Shown piece after piece: positions 46,701-49,563 of a DNA stretch of 64,000 nt (positions are counted from its first letter, which is position 1; every line of letters starts with the position of its first letter). The notes under the pieces were generated by a model that ran no database searches, had not been told where the DNA came from, and saw nothing but the letters and a program-made list of their open reading frames with translations. The DNA is from Volutella citrinella. Its lineage: Eukaryota > Ascomycota > Sordariomycetes > Hypocreales > Nectriaceae. The stretch is taken from assembly GCA_034401135.1 (NCBI GenBank), contig JAWZSP010000002.1, forward strand, positions 3,286,001-3,350,000. The letters run 5' to 3'. The translations under genes were made by a program, and so were the position numbers.

Positions 46701-47499
46701 TCGTGCGACCAGGATACCCTCTCCGCCGGTGCTGTCTCGGCTCAGGCCAAGGACAAGGGCCCATCCGGCCGTCACCATCCGCTGCATCCCCTTGGACGCC
46801 CTCTGCAGCGGGGAGTCACATATACGGGGATCCTTCGCCGTCGTGTTATCGGCCAAGTTGTAATGATGCCATCCGGCTCCAGCCACGGCTTGACACACGG
46901 CACTGCGCAGTCATACAACAAGCCACGCTCCACAGTGGCATGGTTAGGGCTTGTTTTCGCAAAGCGAGAGCCAACTCTCTGCCGTATTACATCTGTTGCT
47001 TCGACTACGCAGGGCGGGCATCTGCGACGCCCGCACACGAGGCGGGCAATGGACGGCTGTCGGAAGCGGGCAGAAGCAACAGTAGGCGGATGACGGAGGG
47101 TAGGCGAGATCCCGTGTTATCCGGAGAGTCCTGCCCCGTGCTCATCGAAGCGGGACAACAAGACGAGGGCGGGCGGTTGACCCTGTTGCCGATCAGTCAG
47201 TCCTACTACCTGCCAGAAGCGCACCCGTCCTCGTCTCGCTTCAAACACGAGGTTGTCAAGGTTGTGCACTTTCCTCATGGTGGCGCATTGGCCCTTTGAG
47301 CTTGGCGCACCCACATCTTTTACTCAGTGGACACTGACATCATAAATAGTGATGATATATGGTAAAACTCTAGCTTAAATACAAAAAGGTATATGGTTGA
47401 TGATGTAGCTTGGTCACCCAAAAAGGAATTGAAACTCTATACAACTAAATGGGCAAAGGCTACCAAGTTTCATTTTGTGAGAAAATGAGCAAAAAAGAA
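43768..47499. other. Gene-free interval, 3.7 kb
   Basis: No convincing gene. The best minus-strand candidate is an open stretch at 45205-45513 with six cysteines (V-C-N-I-T-T-W; L-R-C-K-S-C; C-I-C), which could be an exon of a small Cys-rich protein if joined to ATGCCTC at about 45560 through a gtacgc...ttcag intron, but it lacks a signal peptide. The 210-codon plus frame at 46667-47299 shows no domain. The final ~150 bases before the tRNA are AT-rich. Confidence 0.3.
47491..47496 (-). terminator. RNA polymerase III terminator of the tRNA-Thr gene
   Basis: A run of six T on the minus strand, three bases after the discriminator base (ATTCTTTTTT). Six T is enough for efficient fungal pol III termination and shows the locus still has a complete transcription unit. 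Confidence 0.75.
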
Positions 47500-47622
47500 T
47501 GCCCGGGGCCTGGATCGAACAGACGACCTTATCATTACGAGTGATACGCTATTACTTGTTAGATTGGAATGAGACATTTAGACTGACGACGAAACTCACC
47601 ACTACCACTGTGCTACCAGGGC
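47500..47622 (-). tRNA. tRNA-Thr(CGT) gene interrupted by a 51-nt GT-AG insertion in the D arm
   Basis: On the minus strand the gene starts GCCCTGG and ends CCCGGGC plus discriminator A at 47500. Exon parts are 47622-47600 and 47548-47500. Joined, they fold as a 72-nt tRNA: acceptor stem 7 bp with one mismatch (U5-C68), D stem GCAC/GTGC perfect, D loop AGTGGTA, anticodon stem TATCA/TGATA, anticodon loop CTCGTAA (anticodon CGT, U33 and A37 present), variable AGGTC, T stem GTCTG/CAGGC, T loop TTCGATC. The D stem is complete only after removing 47599-47549. A pol III terminator of six T follows. A box and B box are intact. Activity is unproven; it may be a pseudogene. Confidence 0.8.
47549..47599 (-). 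other. Spliceosomal-type intron sequence inside the tRNA D arm
   Basis: 51 nt beginning GTGAGT and ending AATAG, with TCTAAC placed 8 nt before the terminal AG. These are the donor, branch and acceptor signals used by protein-gene introns of this same window. The site, between the third and fourth base of the 3' D-stem strand, is not the canonical 37/38 tRNA intron position, and I see no clear bulge-helix-bulge around it. Confidence 0.65.
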
Positions 47623-48356: not shown

Positions 48357-49563
48357 CTAATTGGACGGTTTCTTTTTAGCATCAACTCCTGTGCTCCAAG
48401 CCTTGAGGATCTTCTCGAGCTCCTTCGCCACCGCGTCTACCGCCTCCTTGGTGGTAGCGCTGCCACAATGATCCTTGGTGCATGGACCGCCATCAAGGGA
48501 AGCTCGCACAACATCCTCGACGGCTTTTGGTTCCTTGTTTAGGTTGAGGGAGTATCTTAGAAGCATGGTTACAGACGGAATGGTTCCGACGGAGATCACG
48601 ATGCCCTGGCCGGAGATGTCGGGCGCAGAACCTGGCAGGAAGCACATTCGTTTGTTCTCGGCACCACCATTCAGCCGGAATCAAGGTCGTCCAACACGTA
48701 CCGTGGATTGGCTCGTATATACCGTTGCACTTGCTTGCCCTTCGGCCTAGTTAGCGGGCGTTTACCATTACGATGAGGCCATTAGCAGGGGAAAACTGAC
48801 CTGTCTGTCGGGGATGCTGCTCAAGCTGGCACTGGGCAGCAGGCCGATGCTGCCAGGGACGACGCTCGTCTCGTCGCTGATGAAATCGCCAAACAAGTTG
48901 CCGGTGACAACGATGCCGTTGAGGCCACCGTGGTTCTTGACCATGATAGTGGCGGCGCGGTCAATCAGCTGGTGCTCGATCTTGAGGTCGGGGAACTCCT
49001 TTTCAAGCGTCTCCGTCATGACCTTGCGGCACAGCCGGCTGATGGCCAGCACATTGGCCTTGTCAAGCGACCAGACCTTCTTGTCGCCGCGGCAGCGGGC
49101 CAGGAAGCGGGCCAGGCGGGCGATGCGCTCAATCTCGACATGCGAGTAGGGCTCAATGTCGTAGACGGAGCCCGAGACTGTGCCCATCACTAGCTCGCCC
49201 ATAGAAAATAGTATCAAAACTGGCTATATGCCCATCAGCACGTTCCTGGTAGAAATTGAAGATCACAGACTTTCCAACATCAACGCAGAAGTTGCCGCGA
49301 CGGAACTCACCCGTACCTTGAAACCTGTGAAGGTAGTCTAGTGATCGGGAAAATTTGAATTGATCTCCCGCCTACTGCCGACAGTCCCATACTCACCCCT
49401 GGCTACCTTGAATGTTACTGAGCGAGATGGCTTCATCGGAGCTCGATACACTAACCAAACTTTCGATAGTCTGTTTGTCTACGGCCGGGCCGAAAGGCAG
49501 TTGATCAACAAATATGTGCCCAACGTCGGGCCTCAAGCGCTGTAGGAAACAAGTGAGGCCTTC
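48357..49563 (-). pseudogene. Broken 3-isopropylmalate dehydrogenase-like (LEU2 type) gene
   Basis: Pieces of a LeuB/LEU2-type dehydrogenase are recognisable in order on the minus strand. An N-terminal scrap at 49563-49393 has P-F-G-P-A-V-D-K and S-S-D-E-A-I. A long central block (about 49202-48801) has Y-S-H-V-E-I-E-R-I-A-R-L-A, S-L-D-K-A-N-V-L and N-L-F-G-D-F-I-S-D-E. A 28-nt piece (48729-48702) encodes N-G-I-Y-E-P-I-H-G, and the end (48631-48357) S-A-P-D-I through A-K-E-L-E-K-I-L. About 100 residues between scrap and core, including the substrate-binding R-x4-R region, are missing, and an in-frame stop sits before the core. The family oxidises 3-isopropylmalate in leucine synthesis, but this copy should be inactive. 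It may be an extra paralogue, not the main leucine gene. Confidence 0.75.

Follow-up and report, generated by a model that had tools for sequence, protein, structure and literature searches.

A tRNA-Thr(CGT) gene of Volutella citrinella interrupted in its D arm by a candidate spliceosomal intron

The splicing of tRNAs and the splicing of mRNAs are taught as separate systems, and a 2026 review, in the part that bears on the matter, treats the splicing of tRNAs as a process that does not involve the spliceosome. A clean spliceosomal intron inside a tRNA gene would connect the two. A tRNA-Thr(CGT) gene of Volutella citrinella, split by a 51-nt GT-AG element, raises the question of which machinery, if any, removes such an insert, and whether the gene still gives rise to a working tRNA.

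The gene occupies 47622-47500 on the minus strand of the 64-kb window (the whole stretch of DNA analysed, to which coordinates refer unless a contig is named) and is made up of 23 nt, 51 nt and 49 nt, with the following features.

47600..47622, minus strand: exon 1, 23 nt (acceptor 5' strand, A box, D stem 5' strand, D loop and G22-T23-G24), from sequence, deletion scoring and a weak second covariance-model match at 47600-47612
47618..47618, minus strand: U5 of the sole stem mismatch, U5-C68, from stem-pair comparison
47605..47615, minus strand: A box TAGCACAGTGG, intact, from sequence against the consensus
47549..47599, minus strand: insert of 51 nt, GT-AG, a putative spliceosomal-type intron at tRNA position 24/25, from sequence, deletion scoring and pattern counts
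47594..47599, minus strand: 5' splice site GTGAGT, from sequence
47558..47563, minus strand: branch-point motif TCTAAC, 7 nt before the AG, from sequence, the pattern being enriched genome-wide
47549..47551, minus strand: 3' splice site TAG (the insert ends ATAG), from sequence
47500..47548, minus strand: exon 2, 49 nt (C25, anticodon arm, T arm, acceptor 3' strand and A73), from sequence and covariance model
47537..47539, minus strand: anticodon CGT, from sequence and ARAGORN
47512..47520, minus strand: B box GTTCGATCC, intact, from sequence against the consensus
47505..47505, minus strand: C68 of the sole stem mismatch, from stem-pair comparison
47491..47496, minus strand: T6 run resembling a pol III terminator, from sequence

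Joining the two exons gives a 72-nt cloverleaf with a CGU anticodon, the tRNA invariants and 20/21 stem pairs, U5-C68 being the only miss, and removal of the 51 nt restores the D-stem pair G10-C25. Directly 3' of exon 2 stands TTCTTTTTT.

ARAGORN reported no tRNA in the 64-kb window and none at the unspliced locus, and Rfam at its gathering threshold gave no match anywhere in the window; as both missed the gene, similar genes may be uncounted. The description of tRNAscan-SE 2.0, where it turns to introns outside 37/38, gives a search for them in the archaeal model. Supplied with the joined 72 nt, ARAGORN calls a tRNA-Thr(cgt) with a score of 115.07. Its intron-tolerant parses of the unspliced locus were a Val(aac) tRNA (105.4), which lies below the joined score, and a 79-nt Thr tRNA with a 44-nt intron (101.7), also rejected on score. 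We then took 441 deletions compatible with a 70-77 nt tRNA template and gave each of them points for paired stems and for tRNA invariants. First place, with 45/49 points, was shared by removal of the 51-nt GTGAGT...ATAG piece and removal of the same length shifted by 1 nt, both leaving an identical product; four deletions without GT-AG ends followed at 43 points, and the Thr(AGT) gene itself reached 46. That boundaries picked by tRNA structure alone coincide with GTGAGT...AG ends supports the reading of the insert as an intron, and the ARAGORN score together with this ranking bears out the tRNA boundaries and letters proposed in the initial annotation. A covariance model built solely from the Thr(AGT) and Thr(TGT) genes of this genome also matches the locus (37 bits, E 3.1e-8 in 16,001 bases, the next best match having E 1.6), with the 5' part aligned into the insert, as expected of a split gene.

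What kind of intron, then, is the insert? It carries the signals of the U2 type, namely a GTGAGT 5' site, TCTAAC, TAG and a short spacing between branch motif and AG (7 nt rather than the 8 nt first given), all within 51 nt. To gauge how often such a combination arises, 51-mers that start with GTRAGT, hold CTRAC 3-15 nt before their end and end in AG were counted in the genome's own sequence and in a reversed control, leaving out 14 own loci (mostly mitochondrial) and two foreign loci. The control held 26 with GTRAGT...AG among 609,382 51-mers, of which 0 also had the branch motif. In the real orientation there were nine, four of them with the branch motif, and these four are the tRNA insert counted three times (the window overlaps with loci L001 and L035) plus a single place elsewhere. 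Across the genome GTGAGT-TCTAAC-TAG occurs at 55 places against 20 in a backward control, which indicates that the combination marks real introns, with about one third of matches arising by chance. Within 309,536 letters, GTRAGT...CTRAC...YAG gave 26 matches against 7 in the control, and the looser GTNNGT...CTAAC...YAG showed no enrichment (35 against 44). The intron of a neighbouring PHD-finger gene, mapped with the help of homologues, reads GTAAGT...ACTAAC...CAG. Spliceosomal introns typically have AG in the exon before them and G in the exon after, and the joined exons here have TG before the junction and C after it, which we count against a spliceosomal intron.

As for the neighbourhood itself, among named homologues of the PHD-finger protein the best come from Ilyonectria robusta (67%), Dactylonectria macrodidyma (66%) and Neonectria magnoliae (65%). 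Ilyonectria belongs to the Nectriaceae, within the Hypocreales. An isopropylmalate dehydrogenase-like gene (48399-49202, minus strand) adjoins the PHD-finger gene, and in several Fusarium and in Dactylonectria estremocensis there are predicted proteins that combine both domains.

Were the signals set aside, the insert could be an ectopic tRNA intron that depends on the tRNA splicing endonuclease and a ligase for its removal. This has been proposed for the introns of red algae and nucleomorphs, which likewise sit in the D arm of nuclear tRNA genes. Passages of PMC4090602 and PMC9602550 report the removal of introns outside 37/38 from nuclear tRNAs in algae, and the former credits the ectopic introns to the tRNA endonuclease. 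Neither possible junction of our insert, however, shows a bulge-helix-bulge (1/4 and 0/4 central pairs), the precursor shows no folding advantage over shuffled sequences (z 0.86), the insert lies at 24/25 rather than at the 37/38 position of the tRNA endonuclease (SEN), and the yeast enzyme, in the section of a review devoted to it (PMC4033280), cuts strictly at 37/38. The full set of spliceosomal signals would, moreover, have to be coincidence, and we consider this explanation very improbable. Still less credible is a chance arrangement or an assembly artefact: we have one locus in one assembly, but the joined tRNA shares the length and layout of Thr(AGT), with 54/72 positions identical and no gap, and the signals are absent from the reversed control. 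That the signals are spliceosomal and not those of a 37/38 intron, as initially proposed, is thus upheld by the control counts and the missing bulge-helix-bulge, and the identification of the insert in this tRNA gene as a spliceosomal intron of the U2 type is, as far as sequence can carry it, well supported.

How the insert arrived is another matter. Reverse splicing or an introner-like insertion had been suggested, and neither found support. A 161-nt query against the genome at E<=10 returned only itself, in an insensitive search that skips common words, and when 13 of the 27 other introns listed were compared with the insert, the best similarity was reached by 10/200 shuffles; the proposed comparison with introns of the same genome thereby extended to 13 introns and gave no similar copy. 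The many near-identical copies of an introner-like element did not appear in the 161-nt genome search or in the 13-intron comparison. Exon 1 followed by GTRAGT was found in one stretch each of prokaryotic genome contigs and viral contigs, both unrelated and without a tRNA. Reverse splicing by the spliceosome is described, in the relevant part of a review (PMC3443670), as shown only with a mutant and believed to be extremely rare. An introner, a transposed intron or reverse splicing as the origin would therefore be unsupported suggestions.

Whether the cell has need of the split gene depends on its other threonine tRNA genes. Of 18 places with CTCGTAA and a T-loop motif, one has both stems, and this is the split gene itself. 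The CTDGTAA pattern gave 16 places, including five Thr(AGT) copies, identical in their anticodon and T arms, and one Thr(TGT), and TTCGTAA gave one place without a tRNA. When room was left for a short 37/38 intron (CTCGTA, gap 19-49), three of 40 places passed the anticodon and T stem test; one, L064, pairs at 7/7 acceptor positions and the others at no more than 4/7. L064 (C4:206631-206675, minus strand) is a second tRNA-Thr(CGT) gene, whose intron, 15 nt long and placed at 37/38, lacks splice-site signals; the gene scores 107.4 in ARAGORN with the intron and 114.9 without it, and is missed by ARAGORN without its intron mode. The idea that the split gene is the sole CGT gene is ruled out by L064. 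The count of CGT genes is at least two, as the stem tests covered gaps 19-49 and the same pattern with gap 49-79 has 50 further places. The initial annotation had held that many intact CGT copies, together with a lack of expression, would reduce the split gene to a pseudogene; one other copy was found, with its ordinary intron, which agrees with the first of these conditions in small part.

Other searches of the genome added little to this inventory. The 72-nt joined query recovered only the two exons of the split gene, in an insensitive search that missed Thr(AGT) too. GTGGTA followed by GTRAGT...CTAAC, a pattern covering one D-loop type, occurs at two places genome-wide, the split gene and C5:2573529-2573586 (minus strand), against 1 and 1 in the controls, and the second match may be due to chance. 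An Rfam tRNA search scored 63 of 1061 candidates. Among the tRNA matches, those of contigs C16 and C26 repeat at an offset of 37,643; C16 (75,286) is exactly twice C26 (37,643), and the two are probably the mitochondrial genome assembled as dimer and monomer.

With a second CGT gene present, the cell need not depend on the split one, and a recent pseudogene becomes the main rival, since a young loss would be expected to have left few further changes. A spliceosomal intron would here have landed in a working tRNA gene and killed it, leaving the reading of ACG to the other CGT gene and a TGT gene, both of which are present. The U5-C68 mismatch fits this account: among the stem pairs compared with Thr(AGT) it alone (linear 5-67) has changed on both sides with pairing lost. 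It weighs less than it was first given, when it was taken to leave function and decay in balance, because Thr(AGT) and the ordinary Thr(CGT) each also have 20/21 stem pairs, so that one mismatch alone is no sign of decay. A young pseudogene would nonetheless look much like what we see, as at 2% neutral divergence 53% of 5000 simulated copies keep all their remaining stem pairs; at 10%, just 5% do so.

Against the loss of function stand the other stems, both boxes, the T6 run and the clean splice signals, all intact, and the pattern of divergence. Relative to Thr(AGT), from which the joined tRNA differs at 18/72 positions, five stem pairs have changed on both sides and still pair (12-22, 51-61, 50-62, 48-64 and 7-65 in linear positions) and two have changed on one side with pairing kept. 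When 18 random changes were placed on Thr(AGT), 20 pairs survived in 0.02% of 20,000 trials (mean 13.2); the same test gave 0.015% against Thr(TGT) with 21 changes, and 0/20,000 against the other Thr(CGT) with 24 changes (of 72 positions). So many differences with 20/21 pairs kept, five of them by two-sided change, indicate that the gene diverged under constraint. The test shows a lineage maintained as a tRNA over a long time, under a constraint that may itself predate the arrival of the intron. The second CGT gene lowers the odds that the split gene functions and the constraint test raises them. The split U6 gene described below further argues that genes of this kind can persist with introns in this genome. 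Taking these points together, we regard the recent pseudogene as doubtful, though it is to be taken seriously.

A different way for the spliceosome to reach the insert would be a longer pol II transcript, spliced as an mRNA, from which the tRNA is then cut. Such a precursor would allow ordinary co-transcriptional splicing and is compatible with the sequence, but the locus has its A and B boxes and its T6 run, no open reading frame of at least 120 aa overlaps it, and the sole stop-to-stop frame of at least 50 codons across it has 68 codons on the opposite strand. We consider a pol II precursor improbable. Transcription by pol III, to which the intact boxes and the T6 run point instead, would produce a 123-nt precursor from the A and B boxes to the T6 run. 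The spliceosome would recognise GUGAGU, UCUAAC and UAG in this precursor and remove the 51 nt, and the joined 72 nt would fold as a working tRNA-Thr(CGU), the product of one of at least two CGU genes. On balance we lean towards this reading, a nuclear tRNA-Thr(CGT) gene with a U2-type spliceosomal intron at 24/25, removed by the spliceosome to give a working product.

The same genome offers a parallel in U6, which the initial annotation had drawn from fission yeast and which is now strengthened by a split U6 gene with two GT-AG inserts in V. citrinella itself. There are three U6 matches, the weakest of which, on C4 and below the family cut-off, is the split gene.

C4:4223855-4224058, plus strand: split U6 gene with two GT-AG inserts (loci L107 and L108)
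C2:4256403-4256508, minus strand: uninterrupted U6-like gene (among loci L105 and L106)
C3:5044332-5044432, plus strand: uninterrupted U6-like gene (among loci L105 and L106)

The first insert of the split gene is 50 nt long (GTACGT...CTGAC...CAG) and contains a B-box-like GGTTCGAAAACC, an 11-nt middle exon ACAGAGAAGAT follows, and the second insert of 56 nt (GTCCGT...GCTAAT...TAG) precedes the last exon. Joined, these exons give a near-consensus RNA of 97 nt that has one extra T and aligns to the Rfam U6 consensus across the ACAGAGA box, AGCATGGCCCC and AAGGATGACACGC. Both uninterrupted genes have the core GCATTTCCCC instead of GCATGGCCCC. They may be retrocopies or represent another type of U6, and, with their core differing, the main U6 copy may or may not be one of them. 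If the gene on C4 is the main U6, V. citrinella shares with fission yeast the splicing of a U6 transcript, which is recorded for the yeast in a passage of PMC10484740. U6 introns in fungi are reported by Canzler 2016, as cited in PMC5832005 and PMC9518982, and a table in the latter lists, for T. reesei, a 'U6 snRNA promoter with 1st intron'.

The tRNA gene can be compared with these and other known systems. The mRNA-type U6 introns of fungi such as fission yeast share with it a host that is usually a pol III gene, a short GT-AG intron with a branch motif and a structured RNA, whereas the host here is a tRNA without a link to the spliceosome, so that one cannot argue directly from reverse splicing into the catalyst itself. 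Introns of fungal U3 snoRNA genes are likewise short and spliceosomal, and their host is a small structured RNA as well, though no tRNA; U3 and U6 are named in the pertinent text of PMC5832005 as the only small structured RNAs known in 2017 to be often interrupted by introns. The nuclear rRNA genes of ascomycetes provide spliceosomal introns in a non-pol II gene, but with an rRNA as host. Such genes are transcribed by pol I and, unlike the split tRNA gene, are multi-copy. Their introns were described by Cubero 2000 and Bhattacharya 2000, as cited in PMC11889510. The ordinary 37/38 intron of L064 interrupts the same kind of tRNA, yet is 15 nt long and without splice-site signals. Among the matches listed in the open-licence literature, none describes a spliceosomal intron in a gene for a tRNA, which does not prove that such reports are absent.

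Two routes to tRNA-Thr(CGU) would then coexist in V. citrinella, the tRNA endonuclease serving the 37/38 gene and the spliceosome the 24/25 gene, so that a pol III-made tRNA would be spliceosome-dependent and the decoding of ACG partly tied to mRNA splicing; this we put forward tentatively, with close to even confidence. The locus would provide a simple test of whether the spliceosome can act on a structured pol III transcript with exons of 23 and 49 nt, and the same genome supplies two controls: L064, the tRNA-Thr(CGT) gene whose intron is ordinary, and the U6 gene that carries two spliceosomal-type inserts. If the two-route reading is true, tRNA finders overlook genes of this sort, and fungi may have more of them than is known.
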